From Macrocystis pyrifera (lineage: Eukaryota > Sar > Phaeophyceae > Laminariales > Laminariaceae), in NCBI GenBank assembly GCA_031763025.1, contig JASSKH010000020.1, positions 11,607,547 through 11,671,546 on the forward strand: a stretch of 64,000 nucleotides of DNA. Direction: 5' to 3'. Position 1 is the stretch's first letter. The number at the start of each line of letters is the position of its first letter. Position numbers and translations under genes: made by a program. The notes beneath the pieces are model-generated. The model saw only the letters and a program-made list of their open reading frames with translations, made no database searches and was not told the DNA's origin. This document shows positions 9,052 through 64,000 of the stretch, piece by piece.

Positions 9052-9329
9052 GCAATCTGGGAGAAGGGATATTTAGGTTGGTAAGCTGTTCAGATATTTT
9101 GGGTCCTGTTGGAATCAAGGTACGGGCGAAGACCCAACCCAACACCGGACTCTAACCCTAACCCTAACCCTAACCCTGACTCCAAACCGCAGCCAAAACG
9201 GGCCAAAACTGGCCATAAACAAACGCGGCTGCGCCGCTCAAATGCAGACGACGATTCCGAAGTGCAGACCGCGCTTCGTAATTTTCAAGTCAAAAACACC
9301 CCTAAATATCCCTTCTCTCAGATTGCTAA
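9052..9329. mobile_element. MITE-like foldback with about 28-bp terminal inverted repeats
   Basis: GCAATCTGGGAGAAGGGATA at 9052 onward pairs with the reverse complement of 9301-9329 with one or two mismatches. Pairing continues weakly outward. The interior (about 220 bases) includes a short telomere-like run and a C/A-rich stretch. No transposase is encoded. Confidence 0.6.
9152..9178. repeat. Short interstitial telomere-like repeat (CCCTAA)4
   Basis: Four tandem CTAACC units are seen. This motif corresponds to TTAGGG-type telomere DNA. It is short and internal to a foldback, so it is not a chromosome end here. Confidence 0.7.
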
Positions 9330-11137: not shown

Positions 11138-13370
11138 ACTAGCTACTGTGAGACCGAGCGTATCCTCCCTGAAGAACAGTGCGGCTTCCGCCCCGCACGG
11201 TCGACAATCGATATGCTGTTTGTCGTGCGCCGGCTGCAGGAGCTCGGACGGCAGAAGAAAATCCCCCGGTACATGTGCTTCATCGATCTGCAGAAAGCGT
11301 ACGACTCTGTCGACCGATAGCTGTTGTGGAAGGTACTCACACGCCTTGGTGTACCAACCAAGATGCTCACAATCATTCGCAATTTCCACGAAGGCATGCG
11401 GGCTCGCATGCGTGCCGATGACGGTGAACACTCGGACTGGTTCAATGTAACCCAGGGGCTGCGGCAAGGCTGGTACTATCGCCGTTACTGTTCAACGTGT
11501 TCTTCGCCGCTGCGATACACATCGTGCTGGTGCGCCCCAGCAAAGACGAATGCATCGTAAGGGATTTGGTTCATCTCGAAGAGGATAGGGTTGTCGGAAA
11601 AGAGGAACCGTTGGCATGCGTGGAAAGGGCTGTGTGGGGCATGTTGTATGCAGACGACGCAGGATTAGTCTCGAAGTCGGGGGAAGGCCTTGCAAGAATG
11701 ATGACAGTCATCGTGACTGTCTTCGAAGCAGTAGGTCTCACGGTATCCGAAAAGAAGACAGAGACGATGCTCCTACGAACACCGGATCAGACGTTTACCA
11801 CCTCACCGCCGCCTATCGACGCTGCAGGCCAAAAGTATAAAAAGACGATCCAGGTTTTATACCTTGGAGGCAACATCCACGAGAACGCTGACCTCTCCTT
11901 CGAAATCGAGCGACGAATCAGTCTGATACGGGCATGCCTCAAACGGTATGGTCCGGGAACTGTACGATAGGACGAACGCACCGCCTAGTCTGAAAGTCCG
12001 GATGCTGAAGGCCGAGGATTGAGACCTTGCTGTACTGTTGCGTGACGTGGACCTTCAATGCGGACCACTTCACCAAGCTTCGATCAGCCCACCACGAAGT
12101 CCGTCTGGGAGTCATTGGCTTCCAGCGCCGACTACGCACCTACCACACCACCCTCTGGTACTCGAAGGCGCTCAGGTCACGATGCAAACGTATCGAAACG
12201 ACCATCCATCTGTAAACAAACGTCGACTCTTCTTTGCGGGGGCTCTGGTGCGGCAACACGAGGGGCGATTGCCCAGTCGGTTGATGTTCGGGGCGATCGC
12301 TGGTGGGGAGAGCTCGAAACAAGGCGGGCACGGCCCAAGACTTGGCCTAGGGCCATTGCTGAGGACCTTAGAGTGTTCAAAGCCACCGAGGGATCAACAG
12401 AAGACTCCCCCATAGTCTTTTGAGTTGGGACCGCACTGTGGCCCACTGCAGCAAAACAGACGGGAAAGTGGTACCGGGGAATCCTCGAAGCAGCTGAACA
12501 GTTCATGGGCACGTGGCACGAGGCTGAGGCAAAGCTGAGTAGACAGCGCCGTGCATCCGCTGCGGGTAGTGTTAGACGGGGGGAGGGGTAACAGCAGGAG
12601 GGGTAGAAGGAACACCGTACAAGTTAAGTGTATAGGGGCGGGGGGGGGGGGGGGGGGGGGGAGTAGAAGGGAAACCGCGGTAGAAGAGAGTAGCAAAGAG
12701 ACCGCAGATAGGGTAGCAAGGTACCAGGCCGACTAATAGGTTGGACTTTCTTTGCTACTCGTACCGCCAACTGCTGCGGCCGTTCGGTACGTATTGGCTT
12801 GGTGCTTTGATTTTTTTCCATGACTTAACGTTTTGCTGTATTTTCCCCTTCTTATCCTTATGAAAGAACAGAAGTACTACATAGATAGTGGGTGGGTGAC
12901 GAGCGAACGTATTTTGGCCCATTCATTATTTCTCTTTTTACTTAGTTATTTAAGTGTTCGCCGGGATGCATATATCCCTTTTTCCTTCCCGTTTCGTCCC
13001 CCTTGCACGCCCGTTTTGGCTCGTGCTCGGGGTAAGTATGTGTCTGGGCTTTGGCTTCCCATTTTATATATTTATTAAGGATTCTTCTCCTTTTCTTTTT
13101 CGGTTTGTTTTTCTTCGTTGCTTCTCCTTCTTTATGGTGTATTTTGGTTGCTGGCGTATGTATGTATGTTGTGTCGGCCGCACCTATTAATAGTGCCAAG
13201 GCAAGGTATTGCGTAGGCTATTAATGCGTTACGGTGTGTTATCTCTGTGTCGTAGTCTGTGACCACAGAGCTCGTATATTTCTCGTAGGGTGAAGAATCA
13301 GCACGGACACTGGGCTTGCTGGATGTCGACGAGTAGAAGGACGGTTTAATGTGAAGAGCACACACACACA
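11138..13370 (+). pseudogene. 5'-truncated LINE reverse transcriptase copy with its 3' UTR (dead)
   Basis: Translation reads the fingers/palm of a non-LTR reverse transcriptase. [15 protein letters not shown] begins near 11163; palm motif A ([13 protein letters not shown]) is followed by a stop codon at 11318-11320; motif C with MLYADDAG is near 11641-11664; the C-terminal region with LPSRLMFG follows near 12270. Several frameshifts split it. A UTR follows from about 12730, with a G tract at 12640-12660, and the 3' signature GGATGTCGACGAGTAG near 13322 ends in a (CA)n tail at 13357-13372. It is closely related to the minus-strand copy at 61380-64000. The sequence before the fingers domain, including any endonuclease, is missing. 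Confidence 0.85.
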
Positions 13371-25392: not shown

Positions 25393-25531
25393 ATGGCTCC
25401 GTTTCCCTATATGCCGATGATGGCTATCATGACAGGTCTCGTCAGCCAACAGGTGGTCCAGATGAGTATATTCGCCTATGCGGGGTTCATGGTGGAGTAC
25501 CTGGGGGCAGTCGACGACAAAGACAAAGCTG
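25393..25531 (+). CDS. Transporter exon 1
   Basis: Residues 1-46 plus one base. It encodes the N terminus and TM1 (MAPFPYMPMMAIMTGLV...). Donor GTGAGG. Ends DDKDKAG. Confidence 0.85.
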
Positions 25532-28500
25532 GTGAGGCTTGATTCCGGGCGTTGGCTTGGCTACACGTTTCGGAGGGAGTTCGGTTAGTAATGTATACAA
25601 AAAAGTTCAGGATCGAAGAAATGTTAGTCGGCTGTGCGTTTTTGGTAGAGGTTGGTGGAGCTCAACACAATTCTCAGCGGCAACCGACGTTGAGAACACC
25701 TGTAACCCGAAGCCAGGTACACAGCACTCTCATGGACTTGGTGTTCACCGGATGAGATTGAAATGTTATCGCCCCATTCAAAGATATCGGGTCTCTCCTA
25801 TGGATGATATCGTTTGGACTCAAAGGCCAACCACTTTTCTACCGTAGCCCGAATCATCATGGCAAGGACGTTGGGGCGGTTCCTCGAGCCTAGGTAGGGG
25901 GAAACACTGTTGGGCTTTAAAACGCCGGAGTATCGTAGCCCGTCAACCGAGTTGCAACAAAACACGTGTAAGTCTACAATGCCGTTGGGGTTCTACAACT
26001 CCAAGCGTTACATGCAATTGCTCATCGGTTTGCGTGCAGAATGTTATTCGTCTTGGACGACTTATCGGCGGAACGTAGACCCTTGTTTTTCTGCAGGGTA
26101 TCCTGCATCACCGTAACACGATCGAGGCGGGACATTTTTCGCTGACGGGCATCCTTGATTATGGATCTATGTACTAAATAATGCTGGGTCCTGCGTGGGA
26201 ATGTTTCAACACCTCGGACAGAACATCGTGTCCCCCTTGACGATGTAGATGCTTCAGGGCAGATATAAGTCCAGATCTGTACCAGATGCAGCATTTGGTT
26301 TTCAACGCTCGTGTTGACGCGTGGGGGGCGGAGTTGTATCATCCACTCAGCAGGTTTCTGGGGTTGGATATGCATTTATCAAAATCGTGCAAAACATCTC
26401 GCAACTGCGGAAGACGATCGAGATAAGGTCATTCGTGGTCTGGGCTACGCGTTCGTTTTAATTATAGTTTGGGGTAGAAGCATTCTGACGGCAGAGCGAC
26501 CGGAAACACGAGACTTGCGTTACTATCAGCCGTCCACAGTAGTTGAGGAAGAACACATAGCGGTTCAGGCATTTCTATGCTGCGCGCGCGTCCCGCAAAT
26601 CCCTGGGTGGCGCTTCCGACACGCCCGCCACCCACGCCGCCTGGCCGGCTTCGTGCGGGGCCACGGTCTAGAGTATTTTAAGCATCTACACGTTCAACCT
26701 TCGAAGTTTGAAGTCCCAAGAAACCTATAGCTTGCCAGTATAGGATTTCTTACGCTACTTAGGCCTTATTGTGCAAGGTTAGCACCTACGCTGGATGGCT
26801 ACAGCATCGTCGGTGCGTGTGATCTGCATGTACCCTACGGTTCTCGCCCAAAACCCCATTACGCAAAACGTAGGATCGAGTTACTTTGCTGTAAATCGTG
26901 ATCATGTCGAATAATATCTGGAACTGATTCACTTGCGCCAGGGTACTACGCCGGATTGTTGTCATCGGGGTTCATGATTGGCCGCATATTTTCGTCGCAC
27001 TTCTGGGGGCTGGTCGCGGACCGTTATGGGAGCCGCTTTGTCCTCATCTGTGGCCTCGTGGCTACCGCGGCACTTTCCATAGCGTTCGGTTTTTCTACAA
27101 CGTTTGTATACGCCTTTATTTGCAGGTGAGGCTTTCGACATTTCATAGAATGGACATTCTGCGGTAGCAGGGGAGGGGTTTGTTTTGGCGTATATGTAGT
27201 TTTGCCGATGAATAGTGCCCGTCGTAAAAGGAGCTTGCTGAGGCATTTTCATCTCCATTTCGTTTGAAGGCACTGTTTTGTTTGTCGCTCTACTCGTGCG
27301 TATCTGTAACAACTGCGGCTAACGTCTGTGAGGTATACGGCACACAGATAATGTTTCATTCTCAACTGCGAAAATTATTGCAAGCTAAACCGCTCTTGCG
27401 TCAACCGTCCGGCCCCAGGTTCCTTCTCGGGCTGTTCAATGGCATGATGACGGCTTCGAAAACATTGGTTTCCGAAGTGTGCGGAACGGAACACGGAACC
27501 GTAGGCATGGGCCTCATCACATGTGAGATTCTCGCGACCTAAGTCTATAGAAGGAGTAGTGTACCACGATCGCCTCGGGCGCCTCACTTCGTAGGGTCCA
27601 ATCCGCAGCGAACCATTGACATCGTGAAACCCTGCCAGTGCAGACCGATGAACGGATGAATGCATCCGAGACCTATGTACACGAGGCGTGGTGTGGTATG
27701 AGCAGAACCTTTATTTTCTGAGTCTGTCAAAACCCCTTCAGCATTGTAGTCCCGTTTTGGGGACAAATCACGAAAAAGCTGTTTGTCCCGAACACGATTT
27801 GTTCTTTGTCCCTAAGTCAGGACTGCAGTTCTAAAGGTGGTGTAACTAAACGCGGTCTAACAAGCCGCGCCGGATTCTCGTTTGTGTTCTTGTTTTATGT
27901 TCGAGTCAAAATATCTGGGACTGGTTCTAATTTCAGCAGAAGCAGTGCTCTCTGTGTGTATGCATTTCAGCGCCTTGTGAAACAGTCAAACCAGGTGCCC
28001 CACGAATCAACCCCGCTGAGGCATAAAAACGAAAGTTCAAAGAAAGCTTACATTCACAGCCATCGTTTTGGAACTCCCTTCAGAGCAACTGGACGCAACA
28101 TGTAGGCCGAAAACCACCATAGAGACTATTATAAAAATGCTACCGACGATTGATGAACGTGAAAAACTCACGAGGTTTCCAGATATCGACGTTAGTGACC
28201 ATAATGTTTTCGGCGAGAATGACCACCACTCGCGTACCGACAGGTGCAAGCTTCTCACGTAGCCCCGCCTCCCGTAAAGAGCGAGCGCCGCGACGTGGTT
28301 TTACAGGTCAGAAGCTGTAGAACGACCAAAATCTAAGGATATCTTGACGGGATGAAACACAACAAGACGTAACGTTTAAGCGCTGTACTTGTAGTTGACA
28401 AGCGTATTGGTCTCCCTCCCCGTCGCTTTTTCTCGTTGAAGATTCGTGATGATGTAAACAGCTTCTCTCCCGTGACCACGGTACGGCGTCCTACCTCCCA

Positions 28501-31500
28501 TCCTTGCACTAGGTACTCCTACTCGCCGTACCTACCTTCCGTTTCTCGTTCTGGTGCTCTCGCTGAAATTCGGTGACACGACGATGGAATAAAAGCCTTC
28601 TTGACTATACACCCCCACCTATTTTCGGCGTCACCTTTCCGCTAAGCACCCTCCGTTCCCTCCCCGTTCAATGCACTCGTCGAATGTTTGTGACATGGTC
28701 GACCGCCATCCTCCCAGGACCTCAGGACCGCCGTTTAGTTCCGCCTTGCCACTGTAACCCGCTTCTCTTCCCCCTGCGCCCCTGTCCCTCTCTCCTCCTC
28801 TCTCGCTGCCGTTGAACTTCGCTGGCATTATATTAACATCACCTTTTATACGTACTCGTAGCTGCCTGGTCCCTCGGAGCGGTTCTTGGCCCTGGCGTGG
28901 GGGGAATGCTGGCGCAGCCGGCGGATAACTTTCCAAGCACTTTCTCCCAGGACGGGATATTCGGGAGGTGATTGTTGGCGCCCGCTACTGGTAGGGAAGC
29001 CGCAGCACTGCTCGGACCGGAATATACTCGTGGTTGTTTTTTTTCGTGTGGGAGCCTTCTCCTTTTGCACGGTAGTACCGCAGTGTACATGTACGAAAGT
29101 CTGTATGTTATACCAATTGTTTAGTCCTCACAACGGGAGTGCCGACCTAAAGGCTAAGGCTAAACCGGTTGTAACCCTTACACAACCAAACCGTTGTTCC
29201 AAACTAAGTCTCCGCAAGGACATGGTTGCAGTTGTAAGAGGTCAAGTAAGGAACTATTAGTAGCATGCATGGCTGGAGCACCGTCTGTAGTCTTTCAAAG
29301 CATTTTAATAAGCTATATTGTCTGTTTTTTTCGAGCTTTATCGGGATGCGCTTTTTCGTTTGTTTCTGGCAGTCGTCGTTCGGGTGAGGACTACTGTACC
29401 TCGACGACGGTTGGCGCGACCTGCCGTGGCAAGGCTCAGATGACGGTCCTCGGTCCGATCGTTTCGCTGTACACTCCACTTTATTCAGCAATACGGTGCT
29501 ACGGTGTAGGGGTATCCATAGCTCCAAGTTTCCCCCAGCCTCCTTTGTCGTGGAGCGACTTTCCGAAAATGTTTAGGCTAGCTCCGACTATTACGGGGGT
29601 CCATAGTTAATAGGACCTATGGTGTACATAAAAATCTATACATTTACGTATTTTTACTAACAAAATTTGGTCCCATTAACTATGGACCCCCGTAATAGCA
29701 ATATCTATAACTTGAATGTGACCGATTAGATTTGTGAAACACGAATAGCATCCCAGCGGTCTCCCGCCAGTCACAATATTTCAACCATGAAGCGCTACTT
29801 CTATTGCAGCCCGACCCTGAGGCTGCCCGATTCGTTCCCCCGATACGAACGACATTCCTAGTCCGGGGACCTAGACGTCGGTTGTTAAATATCCTGGCAC
29901 CTTCTCTCAGGTTGAGTGTAGTGAAAAGGGAATAGTTGTAGGGGACTGATTAGACGATTCCTTTTCCTTTTCTATGCCAGGTGCCTTTGGGTAGTGCTTC
30001 GTCAGAGTTTAGAGCCTCACGTGAAGGCCCCTTTCCAAAGGCTTAATTCACTCCAACAATGGTGGCGATATATGATGCTACAGAGGAACGCCCAGTAGTT
30101 TACTAACATTTCTCATCGGAGAAGCGCTGAACTACAAATATTGATATAAGCTACCGAGACGACGGCGTTGAGAAACGTATACGGTTTACCCGAAGGCCAA
30201 CCCCCTTCTTGGCCAACCAAGTCAATGTTCCGCAAATTACTGTAACAACGAACGACGAAGCATGCCCCACTGCGTAGTAGCCTATTTTGTAAGCCCCATC
30301 AATCCCAGTGACAATCTGAATAAACCGAGCTTCCCTTCTCGCAGCGCGAGTTTGCAACTGTAGCGTGCGTCTGAAACAAGGACATATCGCTGGACGAGTC
30401 TAGCATGCATCTGTAAACCGCAACCCTGAATAATTTCATGCTGTCCAAATACAATCATGCACCCACAGGAATCCTTATCTGCTTTCTAATGTCGTCGGGG
30501 CTGGATTGGCGCTGTTGTCACTGCCGCTGGTATTCGCTTTCCTTCGGAGCACAAAGACAGCTGGGACTGTCAATTCACCGTGAGTGCTAAACTATGCTAT
30601 AACTGGTGCTGCGGTAGGGAGACTACTTTTGGGTCCTCGTTCAGACCACCCGCAGGCACTCCGCGGAACGACCATCTTGTCTTTTTTTGCGGTCTTGAGT
30701 TTTAAAGCCTTTTGTTTTCGCGATGTGCACCACCAACCAAAGATGTCCAAGACCAATTTTGACTGAAGGACAGAGCCACTCGCTCGAGCGGCGTAATCGC
30801 GGTACGTGGCAGTGACAAAGGGACAGCCGCACTGCCGTAACACCAGTGCATGCCTCGGACTGATAGATCATCGATTCCCACTTCATGATCTTGGTCTTTG
30901 AAGGCAGATCTAGTCCCGATCTGGTAGGATCTAGCTCATGTTTCCGGGCGGGACCCGCACAAACCGCATGATCTAGCACAAGTTTCTTGGATGGGATCCG
31001 TGCAATGCAGATCCGGCGCAACCGCTCTCTTCGGCAAGCGAAGAACTAGATTATGTAGATCATGATCTGTACATTTCTGGGTGACGGAGAGGGATGTTCA
31101 CTGAGGATCTGCCAGGTATCATATGCATCCCCTTTGCGTTGCACCTCATTATTCCTTTACACCTACAAATAGAGGCCGGGAGAACGTTCATCATAAAAGT
31201 TGAATAAATTCTAAAGTCATTTTTGGGTGTGAGATGGAGGTCCTGAAGTGAGGCGGCGCGGAAAAAATACTAATACGGGGGACCAAAGTAAATAGGGCCA
31301 AATATTGTTGGCAAAATTAGGGAAACGTACAGGTTTTTGAGTGTACCGTAGGTCCTACCAGGTATTTATTATGACCCCTCGTAGTAATAGGTGCTATCCC
31401 TACCTCGCGGCACTCGTTTGCACCTTGCTCAATGATTCCTGAGCGGCGTAGCGCAGCGGGTGAGCAATCAACCGTTACTGTCGTGTGACACGTTTACTGC

Positions 31501-34500
31501 TATAGAATTGGTTTTCCAGACTACTGTAGCGCATAACTTCCGACAGTGAGGCACCACCCCTACCGGGCATTATCCCACAGGAGGCCCTCGTTCTTCCGCT
31601 CCCGACTAAACAGAGAGAAAGCCTGGTACTCTTCTTGGTGCACGTCTTGGCGCAGCTTCTTCCGCCGAGCAAGACACGGCGGTGACAACGGCAGCTACCG
31701 TACGGACAGTCGCAACAAGGGTGGTGCGGAAGAAGGTACTGGCACCGACTGCGCGGATTCGATCGAGGCTTGTGGTGCTCGGGCACCGTCCTGGATCCAG
31801 CCGAAGACTATACCTCCTACTACTGCTACGAAAGGCAAAGGCGGTTGGACTGACAGAAGCTTTAGGTCGGCGATTGAGGCTTGGGGAATTAGTAAACCTT
31901 CCTGCATGAAGCCGGCGACGAAACCTGCTCCTACAGATCGAACACGAGATTGGACCGACGAAGAGACCGACGAAGACAACAATAGGAAGCCGTCCTGGAT
32001 GCAGCCGGAGACGATGCCTCCAACTTCTGATGACGGTAGAATAATTGAGTCGGGCCATGGTGCGGAGCGGGCCCGTCGCAAAATGAAGGACTTCAAGCAG
32101 GACAGCTTACTGGCGCAGCGACACATCGTCGCGCTTCTGTTTATGGAGGCGGTGTATTCGGTAAGCCATGCTACGGCCGTGGTGCGGTGGGGAGAAGGGA
32201 AGAGAGGTACAAATCAGTCAAAATATTTACGACCGCCGATGCTACTTGAACTTCGAGGTGCCGATGCAAATCATGCGCCGACCTACTCATTCAATTGAAA
32301 GCCTAATTAGTATGTCCTAAATACCTGGTATGTGTTCACGTTAAACACCGAAAGCAGTACGGTAGTGTTACTCTTAGTACAGTGGTACAGAGACAGGTGG
32401 TGCCACAGGGATGGCAATCTTTGGCCAACCCATTTTGAATTGCGATATTAGTAGTATCGGAATCGAATGAATGTCATTCCCTTAACTTGTCTCCAGACTC
32501 GGACTTTGACGAAACGAGGCACCGGTAACGATATGCAGTATGCGTATACGAGCGATAGGGTGAACGGAAATAACATACGCCACATGCTTAAACTGGACGG
32601 ACGTTAAACAATTTGTTTTTCACAACGGGACGAGACGGTGGTTCTACTGCTGTTGCAGACGGGACGGAATAGGGGAGTGGGCGTAAACATTCCGCAACGG
32701 TTCGGGACGGTACAGCAGTACTATGAGTTGTGGCTTTCATGACCGGTACCACACGCAACGTCAGTATCTTGTCCGTTGGTATTACTAGTACTTGGAGTAC
32801 TATTCCGGGGGACCATAGTAAATGGGACCAAATTTTGTTAGTAAAAATTGGGAAATCTATAGGTTTTTGTGTATACCGTAGGTGCTAGTTACTATGGTCC
32901 TCCGTAGTAGCTGTAAGAGAAAGATACAGTCAATATATACGCCCAGTACATACTCGGATGATGAAGTAGTTCGGTCTTCAGTTCTGGTCACACCCCCAGT
33001 ACCCACGTAACAAATGCGGATATCTCGTGCACTTCGAGTATTCCGGAGTTCTATACTGCGGGTACTGCAAGTACCGGCGGTCCTCCGTAGTAGCTGTAAG
33101 AGAAAGATACTCTCAATACATACGCCCAGTACATACTCGGATGATGAAGTATTTCGGTCTTCAGTTCTGGTCACACCCCCAGTACCCACGTTACAAATGC
33201 GGATATCTCGTGCACTTCGAGTATTCCGGAGTTCTATACTGCGGGTACTGCAAGTACCGGCAGTTTCCCGCTTGTTGGTACTGCAAGTACTGTGAGTACT
33301 CGAAGTACCGACAACATACACTCAATAGGCCCCGTATATACTCGGAGTACCCCATGTATTCAGGTGTTTGATGCCTCGGGTACCGCCTGAACTCGGGATT
33401 CGTGCTGCTTATGCTTCCAGTACTTGCAGTGTTTCGGCCTTCACTAGTGCCCATACTCCAAGCACTCGCAGTATTCAGGCCGCCAGTACTCTAATACTAT
33501 CAGTACTCGAGTACGAGATGTACTCGATAGTCCGAGTATACTCGGACTACGAAGTGGCCGTACGTGTAGCATTTGTGGAATGCCTTATGTACTGCGTTGT
33601 GTATATTTCATGGCTTCGTCAGGAGAGAAGAATGGAGTTTTTTAGCTGCTCCTATGCTATGTACGGATACTCTCCGCGTCCAAGCCAGAGGCAGAAGTGC
33701 GCTGCATTTTTTTATCATTTTCGTATTGGCGCAGAACAACAGTAGCAATAGTGTTAATAGTAGAGTACTCCAACATCAAGCCCCCGCGCGCTGCCTGCCG
33801 TCGACGAATCTGACCCGAAAACAAGCGTATGAACAAGCAGCCTTTGGTGAGGAGAAGATATACCACACACAGCGAACGAGCACATCCGCCAGCCGTTGCG
33901 TCGCAATACTAACAGTGCACAGACAGCAATCGAGCAACAGGCATCTCTTCAACGCCCGCACAGCACAATGCATGCCCTACATAGAGACACCAATGTGCGT
34001 CCATCTGGTTACCCCCATCACAGCTCAGGCTTTGTCCCAAGGCGCGGTTTGTGTATGTAGCCAGTACCTGGTCAGCCCCGCTAGAAAAAAGTTCATCCAT
34101 GTGTGGAACTCCGAGTCTGTGACCTGGGCCGGCTCAGCGCCACTCATAGCCTGTCACAGTTGGCCCTGTCCCATTTTCATCCAGCGAACTAGAACCTGGG
34201 CCGGAGCTGCTAGGGCGCATATACTAACCTGAAAGAACCCTTTGCCAGTAACCCGCAGGATGTATGTGCAGGCAAACTCGATATCGGATACCCCCCAGAC
34301 CCGCTGGTGTAGTACGTCGCTCACAGGCAGATGCCGACAGCCCCGTCGTTCCGCATCACTGAGCGTAAGCTCGCGGTCCTGCGAGAGCTCCGTGACCACA
34401 TATGGATATCCCAGAGATATCCGCAGAAAGAGTTGTCTGTGAATCCACGCACCGCAGCCGGAACATTCACTACTACTACTGTATTGTCGAAGGTCGTTTT

Positions 34501-37500
34501 TTTAAAGCATGCATAGATTCCGGAGAGGCATACACAAACGCTAGCACGAAAACAACTGAACGTGGAGGAAATGTGAAACAAGGTGCTAAAGTTTCCATGT
34601 ACGGCTATGAGGGTCACGAAAATGGATACACGCTATATGCGTAATGATAGGAGTGTAGACCCAGGTACTTCTAGTGTCTACGTCGATGGTGGAAAAAGAA
34701 AAATCGTTTCCGATGATGAGGTTCCAGTACAGAGCCTGGAGAACGGACAGGCTTCTCAACGGAGACTACTGTGGGAAACACTACCCAATATCGTGCGTTA
34801 TATTCCATATTTGTCTTGCATATGGACGTCGTAAGCCGTATAATTCCTCATCGGGTCAAGCGCACACTTCTCGTTCGGTTCTGTGCTGTACTCTGCTGTG
34901 CTGCACAGTAGGACTACGGTACAGTATCACCTCCCTTATCATTTTCCTCGTTGCCATACGTGGACCCAGAATACGGCAAGAAACATATGTGTAGCTTTCT
35001 GAATGCCCATCCCCTCTCCCCTTCTCGTGTTCCGAATGTTTCACGCACTGGTTTCAATGGAGCGTGTGGTTAAGGGCCACAACCGCACATTCTGATTTTG
35101 TACGACGCATGCATATTGTGGGCAATCACCGTCTCCTGTACCATGCTCGTGTTTTTCCATCGCACTCTGGTTTCGACGAGCCATTGATTTGGTTGACAGT
35201 CCTCTAACAGTCCCCTGTGATCTGCCCACGTCCCAAGGGCTTCGTACTCGGGCTTAGCCGTGCATTTTATCGAAAGTAACCGTTCCCTGCCTCTTGCTCG
35301 TGCTTGGAAGGTTTCGTTCTCTGGGTTCGACGAGGTGTACGCGTTGTGGGCTTTGAGCAGCGCCTCCAAGGGGGGCCTGGAATGGTCAAGCGAGCAAATA
35401 GGGCAGGTGCGACCAACGAGGCCTTTACAATAGGACTTTATCCGAAGAGGGTACCAGAGCCATTGACGGCAGACTTTGCCATACCTGTATTTGATACTTC
35501 TTCCTTCGCCATGAGAATGAATATCGAAATGATTTTTTTCGGGTGTTCAAGAGGGGTATTTCCCTCAATGTCGAAAACCAACCTAGAATTTGTTATTACA
35601 TGTCCAGATGATAGGTATCCATCGCACCAAAATAGAATAGCAGCTTGGACGGCCTCGTGAGATACACGGTACAACAGCACTGACGTCATACCATGGGCGA
35701 CGCGCCTATGCCATAAATACCGCGATATTTTTGTATCTCGGATATCCCGAAACTGCCAATATTGATTTCGTTTCATGTTGTAGTGGTCAAGCCAGCAAAG
35801 TAGGTAAGGTAGACCAAACACCGCACTTATTTTTAACGATGTATCGAAGGGGGTGCCAGAGACGCGTGCGGCGACACGGAAGGCACGTTTCGGCTGAAAT
35901 ATTTCGTAGGTGTGTGTACGGAATAGACTATATTCGATACCCGGGGTGATTTTGGTGAACGCGTTGAACTTACGAACGTGTCGGGTGACGGCGTATGTGT
36001 AATTCACACGGAACCTTTCCCTAGTGGTCTGGAGGGTGTCGAGGCAGTCCTGAACCTTACCAAAGATTTCGGTAGAGTATTTACCGGGCAAGCCCCCCCG
36101 ACATCTTGTAGTACGTGCCCTACACAACCCTCCCTTCGAAAATATCTTTGACTGACGGAGCGTTTGCTCTCTGGGGCTACTCGGTGCCTCGTTTGTGTTG
36201 CACATCATTTTTCGTTAGCACCCAGGTTAGGGGATTGATATCGGGCTCCTCCTGCATATCTTTTCAAAAGTAGATCTTGGGATAAGCTTGGAAGAGGGGG
36301 GCCATACAAACTATTAATAGATGATACGCCTACTCTGGCACGCGCTCGGACCCATTCTAAGCCGCTCAACAAGGTGCGCTTGAGTCGAGATCTTTCTGAC
36401 GATGCATGCTGGGCTAGGGGTGCACGTACGTTTGCCTTCTGAGGCTCCCCGCTTAATAAGCTCTACGCGTGTAGCATATACACGACGCCCAGGCCCATTC
36501 TCCTTGAGCAAGTTAAAAGTGCAAAACCCGCCTAAACCTCCCATGGTCTACAGTAGACACATCGGTAAACAAGTGTTGGATCACAACCGATGTTTCAGTG
36601 ATAGTGGGAAATTCCTAAGTTGAATAGCCCCATCTGTCAAACGTATTTTACGGAAAAAATGCTACTCTTATTATCGTCGGACGCGTCTGATTGGTCGGGC
36701 CACTCAACGGAACGGAGTTGCACAATGTGTTTGCAAACCCCTTCGAGAATATCAGGATGTTCGTTCGATACTGGGATTTTTCGACAGTACGGGTATCCGC
36801 TTTGGTTGCTCGCCTGGAGTGGTCAAGTCCACGAAATAGATCAGGCGGAATATCTGGCGCTTCCTGTTGCATTTCTTTAACTCCCTCTTGCAACGTATGG
36901 CGTAAACAGCCGTTGGTCCTCTCGACTGTGACTTTGACATCCCGGACATCCCACATCTCCTTGAACAGGTCTTCTTCGCCTGCGGGTTGCTGGTGCTGCT
37001 CTTTGAGTTGGTAGCCGTGCCTTATCTCACGCCTTGGCTGGGTGTCAAGCTTTCGCAGAGGCTAGGCTCTGTGTTCGAGGTGCCCATCTACTTCTTGTTT
37101 CCTTTTCTATCACGCATGGGAGGTGGCGACCTCCCCGTCACCCTAACGGCCCTCGTCCTCCTCTTCACGTGCTACGTTTGCACCAACTCGGTGAGTGCTT
37201 GACGGTGTTATGCGTATGCTGTAGTTTTTGAACAAAGCTATTTCGTTCGGCGTTTGACGCTGGTGTTCTTGCTGCTGCAGCGATCAATGCTGGTGTTGTT
37301 TTCTTTCTGGTCTTCCTGTTCACGTGCTACGTTCGCACCAACCCGGCGTGTGCTTCACGGCGTTGGGAGTGATACTAGTGAAGGCATTTGTTGATGCAGA
37401 TGTTTGACGACGTTGCGGTTGCTGCTGTAGAAGGCAACGATCGAGGTATACGGGGTGCATCAGCGCTGATGTTGTTGCAGCTGAGGTAGTAGAATCTCTC

Positions 37501-38973
37501 CCCGTTCTACGCCAGCACAACCTCGGTGGGTGCAAGACGGTGCTGGGTTACATGTGCCGGTAAAAGGCATCTACCGATGTGGGTGTTTGACGATGTGGCA
37601 ATTGCTGCTTAAGGAAGCAGCGATCGATGTGCGGCGGGTGCTTGACGCTGGTGTTGTTGCTGTTGCAGTGTTACATTGTAGAACCTCTTTTCAAGCTACA
37701 TGTATGTGCACAAACTAGGCGAATGTTGGGTGTTTGCTGTAGGGATTTACGGCCGTTTTTTATATGGGTATCTACCGTTTTACCCCCTTTACTTCTCAGG
37801 GACGGGATAGTTGTTTGCCACGCCGCGCAGTTCTTCATGGGTGGACGAATGCTGCGTTGGGGGTGCATGTAACATTGTCTCAGGCTGATCTCTTGATTTA
37901 TTAGACCATATCCAAACCCTCGCTTGGAGAAGAACTAGATCCTAGATATTTACCGAACAACGAATAGGTCGAACTCCAGGTTACCTGGGGCCAGTTATAT
38001 TATTTTGAAATATTGTAAGATAAATTCGAAGAACAGAACAAGGTCACGGCCTACCTTATGTATTTGTCGAACATCTTAGTAATGTAGAATTCACAAAGAA
38101 AAAACGTTCAGCCATACATTGGGAACTCTCGAGTCGGGAACTCCGTCAGTCATAAATACTTCAACCAAGACGTCGATCGTATCAATATCGCAGCACGCTC
38201 GGCGCCGCATGGACTGTCTATACCGCTACAACGTCGGGCCACCCTACCCGGGGATGACTCCCCCGGGTGGCAATCTGCACCGCACCTAATTCCGTCCGGA
38301 GCCAGCGGGTCAACATGCTCAGGGTCCCCGAGGTAGCAGCAACTGTTTACACTGTTGCAACTGAAGAGACAAGATAAATTGACGCACGACAGCTTTTAGA
38401 AACTTGATGTGTGGTGGGGTTCATATTCAAACCTATCCATCCACCGGAGGAATAACCACATTAAAACTGAACACTACGCGCACTACCGCGTGTCTATGAA
38501 AGCCGCCATCCAACCTGAATGCCAACCAGCCATTCTACCATTTCCACCTTTCCTCCTTACCTCGCTGTCCTCCTACACCACAACACCTTTATACGTGCAC
38601 CCTCCTTGTCGACTACACGTCGTTCGCCTGATTTCCTTGTGCTTTCGTCTTCTTCGTATGGTCTATCCCTCCTCTCCGACCCTCGCTTTGTGTTGGATTT
38701 CGAGGGCAGTTCTTCGTGGGCACCGCGTTGGCTATCAACACCGCCACGGGGGCTGATCGACGGGGCGAGCTTAACGGCATCTCCTCGATGATCACCTCCT
38801 TGATGAGAGCAGCCTCTCCCATCGTGTCCGCATCCCTATTCGCCTACTCCATCAACAGCGGCCACGGTTTTCCCGTCAACCACCACCTCGCCTTCGCCTT
38901 CCTGGGCTCGATGAGACTCATCGCGGCGTGCATGGGGTGGAGCAGGATAACGGACAACGGCAACATGGAGTAA
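25393..38973 (+). CDS. MFS transporter, DHA1 / zinc-induced-facilitator-like, nine exons
   Basis: Exons 25393-25531, 26942-27125, 27419-27522, 28862-28967, 30469-30579, 31581-32160, 35311-35406, 36969-37190 and 38710-38973 join to 601 codons plus stop, with all splice phases matching and all introns GT-AG. The protein has two six-helix halves around a long loop (about residues 205-395). MFS motif A, GLVADRYGSR, is at residues 69-78. The antiporter motif C, GAVLGPGVGG, is at 148-157. DEVYALW (415-421) and GGL follow in the second half. Relatives (plant ZIF/ZIFL, fungal homologues) are proton-coupled exporters of small molecules in vacuolar or plasma membranes; substrate cannot be told here. 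The start at 25393 has a good context (GAGATGG); 25237 is an in-frame alternative. No exon carries a break, so the gene may be functional. Confidence 0.88.
26942..27125 (+). CDS. Transporter exon 2
   Basis: Residues 48-107. It carries YYAGLLSSGFMIGR (TM2), motif A (GLVADRYGSR) and TM3. Acceptor CCAG, donor GTGAGG. Confidence 0.92.
27419..27522 (+). CDS. Transporter exon 3
   Basis: Residues 109-142. FLLGLFNGMM and SEVCGTEHGTVGMG form TM4 and the following loop typical of this MFS group. Donor GTGAGA. Confidence 0.92.
27743..27830. mobile_element. MITE family 2, copy 3, in transporter intron 3
   Basis: TGTAGTCCCGTTTTGGGGAC and its complement at 27805-27830 (GTCCCTAAGTCAGGACTGCAG) form the ends. 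Non-coding. Confidence 0.6.
28068..28262 (+). other. Short coding-like frame in intron 3
   Basis: A 64-residue open frame (MELPSEQLDATCRPKTTIET...) with charged composition. It lies between exons 3 and 4 and is out of register with the transporter reading. Not recognised; probably chance or a remnant. Confidence 0.15.
28862..28967 (+). CDS. Transporter exon 4
   Basis: Residues 144-177. SAWSLGAVLGPGVGG (antiporter motif C, TM5), then MLAQPADNFPS. Acceptor TCGTAG, donor GTGATT; 106 bases restores the phase between exons 3 and 5. Confidence 0.92.
29591..29695. mobile_element. MITE family 1, copy 3, in transporter intron 4
   Basis: Best-preserved copy: inverted repeats TTACGGGGGTCCATAGTTAA with one mismatch over about 28 bases, TA at both flanks (29589-29590 and 29696-29697), 105 bases. 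Confidence 0.9.
30469..30579 (+). CDS. Transporter exon 5
   Basis: Residues 179-214. NPYLLSNVVG begins TM6, ending before the central loop. Donor GTGAGT. Confidence 0.92.
31273..31384. mobile_element. MITE family 1, copy 4, in transporter intron 5
   Basis: Diverged copy: left end ATACGGGGGACCAAAGTAAA, right end ATGACCCCTCGTAG, TA-flanked. Confidence 0.7.
31581..32160 (+). CDS. Transporter exon 6 (central loop)
   Basis: Residues 216-408. A long polar loop containing three imperfect peptide repeats (PSWIQPKTIPPTT, PSCMKPATKPAPT, PSWMQPETMPPTS at residues 284, 321 and 352), then the start of TM7 (IVALLFMEAVYS). Donor GTAAGC. Confidence 0.8.
32803..32907. mobile_element. MITE family 1, copy 5, in transporter intron 6
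   Basis: Left end TTCCGGGGGACCATAGTAAA, right end ACTATGGTCCTCCGTAG, TA-flanked (32801-32802 and 32908-32909). Its right end is also duplicated in the adjoining tandem repeat. Confidence 0.75.
32896..33261. repeat. 183-bp tandem duplication in intron 6
   Basis: Two copies starting at 32896 and 33079 (both begin GGTCCTCCGTAGTAGCTG), differing by few bases. The first copy begins inside the right end of a family 1 MITE. Confidence 0.9.
33262..33560. repeat. GTACT-rich simple sequence in intron 6
   Basis: Many irregular AGTACT and CGAGTA motifs (for example CAAGTACTGTGAGTACTCG). It continues the composition of the 183-bp unit; likely slippage-derived. Confidence 0.6.
33561..35310. other. Rest of transporter intron 6
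   Basis: Unique-looking sequence. A 219-codon open frame at 33573-34232 has no recognisable domain. I found no transporter exon between 32160 and 35311, and none is needed by the phases. Confidence 0.4.
35311..35406 (+). CDS. Transporter exon 7
   Basis: Residues 409-440: VSFSGFDEVYALW, then SKGGLEWSSEQIG. This matches the conserved segment between TM7 and TM8 in the family. The acceptor is GAAG, less common; donor GTGCGA. Confidence 0.9.
35438..36208 (-). CDS. Antisense 256-codon open frame in transporter intron 7, unrecognised
   Basis: It opens with ATG at 36208 and runs to a stop at 35438, entirely inside intron 7 and antisense to the host gene. The product is basic and aromatic-rich (NYTYAVTRHVRKFNAF, HYNMKRNQYWQFRDIR) without a clear signal peptide or membrane segment. 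Part of it overlaps a decayed duplication of the exon 7 junction (35782-35880 resembles 35389-35480), which argues that the frame is at least partly fortuitous. It could be a transposon remnant. No family recognised. Confidence 0.25.
   Translation of the reverse strand: MMCNTNEAPSSPREQTLRQSKIFSKGGLCRARTTRCRGGLPGKYSTEIFGKVQDCLDTLQTTRERFRVNYTYAVTRHVRKFNAFTKITPGIEYSLFRTHTYEIFQPKRAFRVAARVSGTPFDTSLKISAVFGLPYLLCWLDHYNMKRNQYWQFRDIRDTKISRYLWHRRVAHGMTSVLLYRVSHEAVQAAILFWCDGYLSSGHVITNSRLVFDIEGNTPLEHPKKIISIFILMAKEEVSNTGMAKSAVNGSGTLFG
35782..35880 (+). repeat. Decayed copy of the exon 7 end and start of intron 7
   Basis: TGGTCAAGCCAGCAAAGTAG here matches TGGTCAAGCGAGCAAATAGG at the exon 7 end (35389). 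Similarity continues into the intron (CGAAGGGGGTGCCAGAG versus CGAAGAGGGTACCAGAG). A weaker third copy begins near 36818. Confidence 0.6.
36969..37190 (+). CDS. Transporter exon 8
   Basis: Residues 441-514: TM8 (VFFACGLLVLLFELVAVPYL), then a loop with LGVKLSQRLG, TM9 and TM10. Donor GTGAGT. Confidence 0.88.
37305..37735 (+). repeat. Tandem decayed copies of the exon 8 end in intron 8
   Basis: The exon 8 end (CACGTGCTACGTTTGCACC then AACTCGGTGAGTGCTTGACG) recurs at about 37320, 37505 and 37690 with substitutions. Each copy keeps a version of the splice-donor region. Spacers carry TTGTTGCTG/TTGCAG-type motifs. Confidence 0.65.
37736..38709. other. Rest of transporter intron 8
   Basis: No gene or repeat is evident in it, apart from the pyrimidine-rich stretch before the exon 9 acceptor. 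Confidence 0.4.
38710..38973 (+). CDS. Transporter exon 9 (terminal)
   Basis: Residues 515-601 and TAA stop. FFVGTALAINTATGADRRG, ELNGISSMITS, RAASPIVSASLFAYS give TM11; HHLAFAFLGSMRLIAACMG gives TM12. Acceptor GCAG after a pyrimidine-rich stretch. Confidence 0.9.
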   Translation, partial: FFVGTALAINTATGADRRGELNGISSMITSLMRAASPIVSASLFAYSINSGHGFPVNHHLAFAFLGSMRLIAACMGWSRITDNGNME

Positions 38974-39390
38974 TCATCCATATCTTGCATGAAGAAGTGT
39001 GCCTTTCTCCTTGGTTCCGGGGTTCTGATTGCATGGGTGCGACATATTCTATGGTAGACGTTCAGCTGCATTTGTCGGTGGGCTCCGCCAATGAGAAGCT
39101 CTACGTATGTATGATCCAAACACGGGGGCTAGGGGATAGTGCACGCTTACCCTGATGAAACATGGCCATGGCCTCGGTGTGTTACGAATCACATGGCAAG
39201 GAACTATTTGCGTTGTGCGCTTGCCATAGTTGGGAAGCTCCAGGGGTTTCGAATAATTTAGCTCTCAAGTCTGCCCCTCTCGCAGGATGCGAAAGTCTGC
39301 AACGTAGAACATGGAGTAACTCGGCCTACGTATAGACGGTGTATTCGTTTCTGACTCGCTCCGTGAGGTGGCGCGCGGGATTGTTTTCCC

Positions 39391-39465
39391 TCCTGGATTC
39401 GATAAAACTGATCGCTGCGTGTATGGGGCAGAGAAAGATCACGCGGACAACACGAACATCTTTCA
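39391..39465 (+). repeat. Decayed partial copy of terminal exon 9
   Basis: CCTGGATTCGATAAAACTGA then TCGCTGCGTGTATGGGG matches the TM12-coding part of exon 9 (from about 38908), about 483 bases downstream of the original. Confidence 0.65.
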
Positions 39466-39742
39466 CAGATACACCGGAGCTCACATGTTTTAGGAGTGGA
39501 GGCGTTCTGTAAGAGGGCGTAGCGGGTTTCTGGTAGATCAGCTGCGAACAAGAGACAAACCTACCACCGGAAAACCTCCAAGGGGGGGGAAGCGATGAAA
39601 CTAGGGAAGTGATAGAAAGAAAACGGCAGAAAACTCTCGCCAGGTACTCGAGCTGGGGTTTCATTTTTAATTGTCATCGGAAGTGTGCGCGCTAGGAGTG
39701 GACGGTGAGCAGACACAGCATGTCTTTGTTCGCTGATTGCAG

Positions 39743-39787
39743 CTCGGACTGTGCGTTGCTATCCTGTTGGCTTTGCCGGGCTCAAAC
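39743..39787 (+). other. Exon-like hydrophobic segment downstream of the transporter
   Basis: Bounded by an acceptor-like TGATTGCAG and a donor-like GTAAGT, it encodes LGLCVAILLALPGSN, which resembles the last helix of MFS proteins. It may be an alternative or former terminal exon, linked to the exon 9 duplicate upstream. Confidence 0.3.
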
Positions 39788-39953
39788 GTAAGTCATGTTT
39801 TAGTAGAGCATATACCCTATTTTATGGCGGTAGTGTACACTACTACTTTTGTTCGAGATCGGTGCAACGTACGGTATAATCGGTCAACTTTCGACGCGTT
39901 GGAGTGCTGCTTGAGAGATTAACCGTTATGCGATAGCTGCTACGCTAAAACCT

Positions 39954-41000
39954 TCCGCGGTCACAGATATCTAATCGAGCCCGTGGACTGCTGATATACT
40001 TTCATCGTACCATGGACGTCTCCGTTCTCTTCTTTACATGAGTAATAGATCGGAGGCGTGCTAGTATAGGGGGGGTATGTTTCGGCCTTGAGACATTTTC
40101 ACCGGAAGGAGTCCCGAGTTTGGGAGCCACGCAGTTTTTTTTTATTCAATGCTATTTTTGCACTAATTGCGCGCGCTGAGATTGGGGTAGTACCACCTTT
40201 TGGACAAATCGTTTTTCAATAGTGGGACTTCGAAACTGATGAGCTACCCACCAGTTTGTTGTTATTTTGTTGTTGTGTTGTCTACCTACCGCTGGACAGC
40301 CACGGCATCGTGCTTCGGGGTTCGCCCTTTAGCTTTCCTCGAAGGGTGGGGTTATAGAGCGTCTCATGCGAGGAGCCTCTGCACGTATGAGATGCACCTC
40401 CATCGAAGAACGCATCCAAGTTCGCTAGAAACCCATACCGGTGTACGCTCAGTCCGTGCGATCGTATATCGGCGTCCGCGGTCACAGATATCTACTCGAA
40501 CCCGTGGACTGCCGATAGACCTTTATCGTACCATCAACGTCTCCGTTCTCTATTGTACATGGGTAATAGAACAGAGGCGTGCTAGTAGGGGGGGGGTATG
40601 TTCTGGCCTAAACACATTTCACCGAAAGGAGTCTTGGGTTTGGGAGCCACCCTGTATTTTTTTATTTAATGCTATTTTTGCAGTACTCACGCGTGCTGAG
40701 ATTGGGGTGGTAGATTTTCTTTGACCAAATCGTTTTTGATTGGTGGGGCTTCCAGACTGAGGAGCTACTCACCATTTTTTGTTGTTATTTTGTTTTGGTG
40801 GTAAATATACCTACCGCTGGCCAGCCACGGCATCATCCTTCAGAGTTTGGCCTTTGATTTATCTCGAAGGGTTGGGTCATAGAACTTCTCAAGCGAAAAG
40901 CCTCCGCTTGACTGACATGCACCCCTGTCGAAGAATGCATCCAAGTTTGCGACAAACCTATACCAGTATACGCTCAGCCTTTGCTATCGTATTTCGGTGT
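39954..41000. repeat. 521-bp tandem duplication
   Basis: Two diverged copies starting at TCCGCGGTCACAGATATCT (39954 and 40475). They share CCGTGGACTGC, GGCGTGCTAGTA, TGTTGTTATTTTGTT and CTACCGCTGG blocks. No conserved open frame. Confidence 0.8.
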
Positions 41001-46022: not shown

Positions 46023-46530
46023 CACACTCATGAGCAAGCTCATCTATCGTGTATAGCTCAAGCTTCGAAAACATGTGCAGATGAGCTACCGCCTATAGCT
46101 CAAGCCGGGGGAAACATGTGTAGCTCATGTAGCTCCCATAGCTCATCTCGGGGGCAGATGAGCTGGCTCACGCAGCTCCTATAGCTCAGCCTGGACAAAT
46201 GTGTGTAGATGAGCTATCATCTACGGCTCAAGCTTTGAAAACATGTGCAGATGAGCTACCACCTATAGCTCAAGCGAGGAGAAACATGTGTAGCTCATGT
46301 AGCTCCTATGGCTCATCTCGGAGGTAGATGAGCTAGCTCATGTAGCTCCTATAGCTCAGTCTAGGAAAATATGTGTAGATGAGCTATCCCGTATAGCTCA
46401 AGCACTCAAAACATGTGCAGATGAGCTACCACCTATAGCTCAAGCAGGAAAAACATGTGTAGATGAGCTATCGTCTATAGTTCACCCCCGGAGAACGTAA
46501 TCATAGCTCATGTACGCAGTTCATTGTAGC
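46023..46530. repeat. 42-bp hairpin minisatellite, locus 1
   Basis: Units read roughly AACATGTGCAGATGAGCTAC then a short gap and TATAGCTCAAGC. In each unit TGAGCTA and TAGCTCA form a small inverted repeat around about six bases. Variant blocks insert TAGCTCATGTAGCTCC, giving a higher-order period near 175 bases. Read on the plus strand the first part continues an open frame with a repeating ADELPPIAQA peptide. Confidence 0.85.
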
Positions 46531-48139: not shown

Positions 48140-48570
48140 TACAGTTCATGAGCTAGCTCATCTATCCCCTATAGCTCAAGCCTTGAAAATATGTGCAGAT
48201 GAGCTATCGCCTATAGCTCAAGCTTTGAAAACATGCGTAGATGAGCTAACGTCTATAGCTCAGGCTTCGAAAACAAATGAAGATGAGCTATCGCCTATAG
48301 TTCAAGCTTTGAAGACATATGCAGATGACCTACCGCCTATAGCTCAAGCCAGGGGAAACATGTGCAACTCATGTAGCTTCTATAGCTCATCGCGGAGGTA
48401 GATGAGCTAGCTCATGCAGCTCCTATAGCTCACTCTGGATGTGTATGTGCAGATGAGCTATCCTCTATAGCTCAAGCTTTGAAAACATGTGCAGAGGAGC
48501 TACCCTCCTATAGCTCAAGCCAGGAAACCATGCGCAACTCTTGTAGCTCACGTAGCTCATCGGTGAGCTA
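48140..48570. repeat. 42-bp hairpin minisatellite, locus 2
   Basis: Same unit as at 46023-46530. The first five units are regular 42-mers, keeping a plus-strand frame (48087-48401) with the repeating peptide ALKTCADELPPIAQ; later units carry the TAGCTCATGTAGCT variant. Confidence 0.85.
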
Positions 48571-61956: not shown

Positions 61957-64000
61957 TTAGTCGGCCTGGTACCTTGCTACCCTATCTGCGGTCTCTCTGC
62001 TACTCTCTTCTAGCGCGGTTTCCCTTCTACTCCTCCTGTTCCCCCCCCTGCCCCCATACACTTGTACGGTGTTCCCTCTACTCCTCCTGCTGTTACCCCT
62101 CCCCCCATTCCCTCTAAAACTAACTGCAGCGGATGCACGGCGCTGTCTACTCAGCTTTGCCTCAGCCTCGTGCCACCTGCCCATGAACTGTTCAGCTGCT
62201 TCGAGGATTCCCCGGTACCACTTTCCCGTCTGTTTTGCTGCAGTGGGCCACAGTGCGGTCCCAACTCCAAAGACTAAGGGGGAGTCTTCCGTTGATCCCT
62301 CGGTGGCTTTGAACACTCTAAGGTCCTCAGCAATTGCCCTAGGCCAAGTCTTGGGCGGCCCGCCTGGTTTCGGGCTCCCCCCACCAGCGATCGTCCCGAA
62401 CATCAACCGACTGGGCAATCGCCCCTCGTGTTGCCGCACCACAGCCCCCGCAAAGAAGAGTCGCCGTTTACGGATGGTCGTTTCGATACTTTCGCATCGT
62501 GTTATCCTGAGTGCCTTCGCATACGAGAGGGTGGTGTGGTCGGTGCGTAGTCGGCGCTGGAAACCAATGACTCGCAGAAGGACTTCGTGGTGGGCTGATC
62601 GAAGCTTGGCGAAGTGGTCCGCATTGAGGGTCCACGTCACGCAACCGTACAGCAAGGTCTCAATCACCTCGGCCTTCAGCATCCGGACTTTCAGACTAAG
62701 CGGTGCGTTCGTCCTATCGTACAGTTCCGGACCATACCGTTTGAGGCATGCCCGCATCAGACGGATTCGTCGCTCGATTTCGAAGGAGAGGTCAGCGTTC
62801 TCGTGGATAATGCCCCCTAGGTATAAAAACTGGGTCGTCTGTTTATACGTTTGGTCTGCAGCTTCGATCGCGAGCGGTGAGGTGGTAAACGTCTGATCGG
62901 GTGTTCGTAGGAGCATCGTCTCTGTCTTCTTCTCGGATACCGTGAGACCTACTGCTTCGAAGACAGTCACGATGACTGTCATCATTCTTGCAAGGCCTTC
63001 CGCCGACTTCGAGACTATTCCTGCATCGTCTGCATACAACATGCCCCACACAGCCCTTTGCACGCATGCCAACGGTTCCTCTTTTCCGACAACCCTGTCC
63101 TCTTCGAGATGAACCAAATCCCTTACGATGCATTCGTCTTTGCTGAGGCGTACCAGCACGATGTGTATCGCAGCGGCGAAGAACACGTTGAATAGTAGCG
63201 GCGATAGTACGCAGCCTTGCCGCAGTCCCTGGGTGACATTGAACCAGTCCGTCATCCGCACGCACGCGAGCCCGCATGCCTTCGTGAAAATTGCGAATGA
63301 TTGTGAGCATCTTGGTTGGTACACCAAGGCGTGTGAGTGCCTCCCACAACAGTTCTCGGTCGACAGAGTCGTACGCTTTCTGCAAGTCGATGAAGCACAT
63401 GTACAGGGGGATTTTCGTCTGCCGCCCGAGCTGCTGCAACCGGCGCACGACAAACAGCATATCGACTGTTGACCGTGCGGGGCGGAAGCCGCACTGTTCT
63501 TCAGGGAGTATATGCTCGGTCTCGCAGTAGCTGCTTAGACGGGACGCAACGATTTTCAGCAACACCTTGCCTGCGTGAACAACAAGCGAAATACCTCTGT
63601 AGTTGTTGCAATCAGTTCTATCCTTCTTTTTATGAAGGGTTTTTATGATCGCATCTTTCCATTGCTGGGGGACTTCTCCCGTTACCCAAACGTTAACAAG
63701 GATACTGTGAAAATACTGCACGAAAGCGGGGTGGTCAAGTTTCAGTACTTCGACCGGGAGACCATCTGGTCCAACGGCTTTCCAGTTTGACATACCCTTC
63801 ACTGCTCCCATCATCTCGTCAATGGGTGGTTCATTTCCAAGGGATAGTTTCAGCGGTCATGGTGGCACTAGGTCGATGATCGTGGGGTCAAGTTTCAGCG
63901 ATTTCGTGTTCAATAGTTTGTGGTAGTGCCCCGCCCATCTTTCACGAATTCGCGCTTGATCCCGCAACAGCGTGCCATCCCCGTCCATGATAAACTGTTC
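61957..64000 (-). pseudogene. LINE reverse transcriptase ORF, partial at window edge, lightly broken
   Basis: From the window edge the minus strand reads EQFIMDGDGTLLRDQ, then a TGA (63857-63859), then [25 protein letters not shown], palm motif [14 protein letters not shown], a frameshift at about 63248, motif [15 protein letters not shown], motif [11 protein letters not shown], and a C-terminal region with LLYGCVTW and LPSRLMFG, ending in a Gly/Arg-rich tail at 61957. Non-LTR reverse transcriptases copy the element RNA at a nicked target. Compared with 11411-11445, this copy lacks 11 bases between two CGG triplets, causing the frameshift. The endonuclease would lie beyond the edge. Clade not assigned. 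Confidence 0.88.

Follow-up and report, generated by a model that had tools for sequence, protein, structure and literature searches.

Decayed direct copies of exon sequence beside the last three exons of a putative MFS transporter gene in Macrocystis pyrifera

Tandem duplication within genes has been described in a number of organisms. In an excerpt of a study on potato, a tandem genomic duplication across an intron-exon border of an RdRp gene made a new spliced intron (PMC4974935). Tandem exon duplications in animals have been placed at about 10% of genes (a 2002 study, as cited in an excerpt of PMC9013439). Extracts from two further sources describe the shuffling of LRR exons in ROCO genes of brown algae, with 72-bp exons retained whole and subject to alternative splicing (PMC11378527), and intron positions that arose by tandem duplication in Drosophila (PMC2891723). 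In this study, we analysed a stretch of 64,000 nucleotides from the kelp Macrocystis pyrifera (contig JASSKH010000020.1), hereafter the window. All of the results refer to this one window and to one gene in it.

The present case belongs among these published tandem-duplication systems; its copies are incomplete and decayed and recur at successive exons. As excerpted, the potato duplicate holds an intron end and part of the adjoining exon, as do both upstream copies of exon 7 reported below; however, a new spliced intron resulted there, whereas here decayed extra copies lie inside existing introns or in the 3' flank. Exon-like copies close to the source exon, in introns and flanks, are also found in the quoted account of animal genes, but those seen here are mostly partial and, judged by their sequence, show no sign of use. 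Local exon duplication within genes is shared with the ROCO family, although the extract tells of whole spliced exons and the copies here are mostly fragments, apparently dead. The likeness to Drosophila (PMC2891723, in part) is intron sequence derived from local tandem duplication of exon DNA; new intron positions are at issue there, and the lengthening of existing introns here.

One well-defined gene was found in the window (25393-38973, + strand), with nine exons and GT-AG borders. The rebuilt gene model is intact, a single open frame of 601 codons followed by a stop. Exon 6 has two possible starts (31581 or 31614, both in frame), the first giving a protein of 601 amino acids and the second one of 590. 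Based on its match to Pfam MFS_1 (E 7.6e-28; 97.9 bits against a curated cut-off of 33.4), the predicted product is a transporter of the major facilitator superfamily (MFS). Protein relatives were sought in genome contigs for exons 8-9 and in viral contigs for exons 2-3, and none was confirmed. The exons of the model are as follows:

25393-25531, + strand, exon 1
26942-27125, + strand, exon 2
27419-27522, + strand, exon 3
28862-28967, + strand, exon 4
30469-30579, + strand, exon 5
31581 (or 31614)-32160, + strand, exon 6
35311-35406, + strand, functional exon 7 (VSFSGFDEVYALWALSSASKGGLEWSSEQIGQ); the open frame joins its neighbours
36969-37190, + strand, functional exon 8
38710-38973, + strand, functional exon 9, including the stop

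A coding repeat was observed within exon 6. Its outer pair (31786-31830, PSWIQPKTIPPTT, and 31990-32034, PSWMQPETMPPTS) has a spacing of 204 nt (68 codons) and 85% identity over 40 nt; a third, middle copy (31894-31940, PSCMKPATKPAPT) was seen by eye only.

It had been predicted from the letters of this DNA that the last three exons each have decayed copies of their 3' ends just downstream, and a local alignment of each exon against the following 1 kb had been proposed. We used as query the last 120 nt of each exon (or the whole exon, if shorter) plus 40 nt beyond it, and as the null 300 dinucleotide shuffles per exon; the exon ends used were no more than 2 nt off the final gene model. Downstream of exons 7, 8, and 9, decayed direct copies of the respective exon end were detected, each beating all 300 shuffles. 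The end of exon 7 with adjoining intron (35378-35459) recurs at 35779-35861, at a spacing of 401, with a score of 42 against a shuffle maximum of 30.5; with looser gap costs and plain shuffles the margin was thinner (42 against 39, 0/300). The end of exon 8 with its donor (37152-37220) recurs at 37307-37376 (score 81, maximum 32.5), and 38897-38966 of exon 9 recurs at 39388-39459, 491 nt further on (69.5, maximum 36). The copies are thus real, and the predicted coordinates were within about 20 nt; the spacings had been put at about 390, 155-185, and 483, where we find 401, 155/180/183, and 491. Spacing and unit differ from one exon to the next, which suggests separate events, as had also been proposed.

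No copy was found in the next 1 kb for the ends of exons 1, 2, 3, and 6 (300 shuffles each), nor for that of exon 5 (score 24.5, with no shuffles of its own). The end of exon 4 was marginal, its score of 30 being matched by 3 of 300 shuffles. Plain blastn of 34800-39800 against the window (E up to 1) listed just the exon 8 copies and missed those of exons 7 and 9, which are therefore visible in targeted alignment only; a repeat search listed the exon 7 and 8 copies and missed the exon 9 copy. Searches of exon starts against the upstream 1 kb gave no copies for exons 2-6. For the starts of exons 8 and 9, the scores of 29.5 and 27 were equalled or exceeded in 13 and 17 of 300 shuffles, respectively, and were not accepted.

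With copies of the start of exon 7 and a near-whole copy of that exon included, none of which was part of the original prediction, the relics number eight (one doubtful): four of exon 7, three of exon 8, and one of exon 9. All lie on the + strand, in direct orientation, less than 1.5 kb from the source exon, and none derives from exons 1-6. The upstream exon 7 copies and the rescoring of 36760-36845 used plain letter shuffles as the null. The relics, and the array to which those of exon 8 belong, are as follows:

35007-35077, + strand, decayed end of intron 6 and start of exon 7, acceptor AG lost (second-best alignment, score 37; maximum of 300 shuffles 32.5)
35110-35180, + strand, decayed end of intron 6 and start of exon 7, acceptor lost in a 6-nt gap (score 47.5, 0/300)
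35779-35861, + strand, decayed end of exon 7 and start of intron 7 (score 42, 0/300; extended alignment 55)
36760-36845, + strand, near-whole decayed exon 7 with several indels, donor GT changed to GC (43 against a null maximum of 38; rescored, 52 against 35.5, 0/300)
37152-37306, + strand, array unit 1, last 39 nt of exon 8 and start of intron 8 (repeat search and unit alignment)
37307-37486, + strand, array unit 2, donor GT changed to GC, its 39 exon-derived nt open (84% over 58 nt; score 81)
37487-37669, + strand, array unit 3, donor GT kept (score 73, null maximum 41)
37670-37742, + strand, array unit 4, partial and doubtful, donor GT changed to GC (score 40; null 95% value 34, maximum 41)
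39388-39459, + strand, decayed TM12-coding part of exon 9 (score 69.5, 0/300)

Several further matches were not accepted. A second exon 9 copy at 39282-39319 (sharing AACATGGAGTAA) was equalled by 54 of 300 shuffles, the interior of exon 9 (38757-38843) with 40339-40425 scored 38 against a null maximum of 40, and the start of intron 7 (35426-35539) with 33537-33643 scored 35, equal to the null maximum. No inverted copy of exons 7 or 8 within 2 kb exceeded the 95% null value. One inverted match in the 3' flank of exon 9 (39019-39103 with 40434-40355, score 39) did exceed it, with a null maximum of 40.

The structure is clearest at exon 8, the end of which forms the head of an array in intron 8 with unit spacings of 155, 180, and 183. 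Units 1-3 are 57-65% identical to one another over their full length, and the doubtful unit 4 shows 45-50% identity to the others (global alignment). Beyond unit 2, aligned exon 8 copies begin at 37496 and, doubtfully, at 37684; of the "about three" recurrences predicted for 37305-37735, two are thus firm, and the copy at 37684, with a score of 40 against a maximum of 41, stays in doubt. The array takes up 479 of the 1519 nt of intron 8 in its three sure units, or 552 nt with the fourth, about a third of the intron. On a small scale, intron 8 has clearly been lengthened by tandem duplication, and the route of intron growth that had been envisaged holds here.

The most probable reading is that the relics are non-functional remains of several old local tandem duplications, of a kind that occurs widely in the window and takes no account of exon borders. 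Each event would copy about 120-500 nt in place. Where the duplicated stretch overlaps an exon, splicing would keep the copy that lies next to the remainder of the gene, and the other copy would decay. A duplication over an exon end would leave a relic downstream and one over an exon start a relic upstream; exon 7 has relics on both sides, two copies of its 5' end upstream and others downstream. Direct orientation and closeness to the source, as looked for in local tandem duplication, were found throughout. Adjacent units in constant register are present at exon 8; the copies of exons 7 and 9 are recognisable over just part of the presumed duplication unit, and for these exons an adjacent tandem copy is what we infer. 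Several observations count against this reading. The accepted relics all come from exons 7-9, a mild excess at exon borders is possible against the gene body, and just part of the presumed unit is seen at exons 7 and 9. Not all relics are visibly broken: the 39 exon-derived nt of unit 2 remain open, and the exon 9 relic is disrupted only near its 3' end, by a 2-nt insertion. The faintness of the selection signal and the GC at the three lost donors, both described below, also count against it.

Relics that derive from exon sequence may stay recognisable longer than those from introns, through selection acting on their source exon; the support for this in the data is faint. Summed over the eight relics, 70 of 336 aligned exon positions and 51 of 199 aligned intron positions differ (rows non-independent). 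By codon position 1, 2, and 3, the exon differences are 24, 17, and 29 of 112 each, again over eight non-independent rows.

It is unlikely, in our estimation, that the relics instead go back to tandem duplication of whole exons, the copies having formerly been used as alternative (mutually exclusive) exons before they decayed. The relic at 36760-36845 covers nearly all of exon 7; in the exon 9 relic, third codon positions carry the most differences (8 of 16); and array unit 2 reads LVFLFTCYVRTNP against LVLLFTCYVCTNS, all as such an origin would have it. However, none of the eight relics spans a whole exon with both splice sites; seven are partial, and the near-whole one has no GT donor. At most the last 39 nt of exon 8 are present in its copies, and the copy of exon 9 is confined to the TM12 part; neither in length nor in their ends do these match the exons, and the splice sites are mostly lost. 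Another proposal, which we regard as an outside chance, concerns the relic at 36760-36845, 123 nt upstream of exon 8. It might be the ancestral exon 7, followed by a short intron, whose upstream duplicate took over splicing, intron 7 growing from about 123 to 1562 nt. If that were true, introns in this genome would grow repeatedly through exon copying followed by a change in which copy is spliced.

The blindness to exon borders proposed under local tandem duplication was examined against a background of the same score at 1029 positions, spaced 60 nt apart over the whole window. Downstream copies with a score of 42 or more were found at 15.7% of them, of 69.5 or more at 8.3%, and of 81 or more at 6.6%, and upstream rates were similar. 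At the 851 positions left without the least complex tenth and 34.8-39.6 kb, the values were 14.2, 8.1, and 6.5%, respectively; of 164 positions in the gene body, 9.8% reach 42 or more. Against the window background (14-16% of positions), three of nine exon ends with a copy give P 0.12-0.16, and four of 17 borders (nine ends, eight starts) give P 0.21-0.27; against the gene body the values are 0.05 and 0.08, all of these being binomial probabilities that take exons as independent, with a background that takes in transposon-like and tandem-array DNA. Exon borders in this window show no firm excess of copies, and a mild one is possible when the gene body alone serves as the background.

A preference of the duplicating mechanism for exon-intron borders, as the original prediction had suggested, is very unlikely on these figures. 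Downstream copies at three consecutive exons and the P of 0.05 against the gene body speak for it, but the window background does not, and the exon 9 copy holds no splice border. Moreover, the ends of exons 1-3, 5, and 6 have no copy, and exon 7 is copied at its 5' end too.

Local copying is in fact widespread, direct repeats up to 1 kb apart making up 12.6% of the window. Clusters within 600 nt are 22 direct versus 6 inverted, whereas matches beyond 2 kb are balanced (66 direct versus 61 inverted); this local bias with distant balance fits duplication in place better than scattered insertion. The coding repeat within exon 6 also speaks for local duplication. The smallest spacing of the direct local duplications is 150-235 nt, about nucleosome size, in 10 of the 22 clusters (P 0.008 versus a log-uniform spread, post hoc). 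Other repeats were observed in the window. Two tandem copies of 521 nt with 80% identity (39954-41000) lie about 1 kb past the gene, and two arrays about 1.6 kb apart (46044-46514 and 48148-48570) have common 42/170-nt units rich in GAGCTA. A short interstitial telomere-type array, (CTAACC) in 4.3 copies, is present at 9152-9177, and reverse-transcriptase-like frames of a LINE-type element were recognised by eye at 61957-63856 (- strand) and 11428-11970 (+ strand).

From their sequence, the relics look mostly dead. Both aligned acceptors are lost, as are three of the five donors, all of which now read GC (36846 region in the 36760 relic, 37345 region in unit 2, 37717 region in unit 4); GC donors are functional at low frequency in many eukaryotes. 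GT survives as GTAGAC at 35809, with GTAAGG 5 nt earlier at 35804, in a relic that has an in-frame stop and a 1-nt insertion, and as GTGGGT at 37526 in unit 3. That the copied donors act as decoy splice sites regulating the gene seems extremely improbable: two of the five keep GT, but the other three are lost, and read-through toward either kept GT would meet a stop within 9 codons (35431-35433; 37200-37202, exon frames). Interleaved remains of a second whole gene copy were rejected by reasoning, because each relic adjoins its own exon, an order that needs a separate local event at each.

General local duplication can mimic a mechanism aimed at exons if exons alone are examined, and positions elsewhere must be scored as a control. 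The introns of Ectocarpus are noted for their length, with a median of 524 bp on autosomes in the excerpted account (PMC12477816). The share of long brown algal introns that may have arisen by duplication of the kind described here is a fair question to ask genome-wide.
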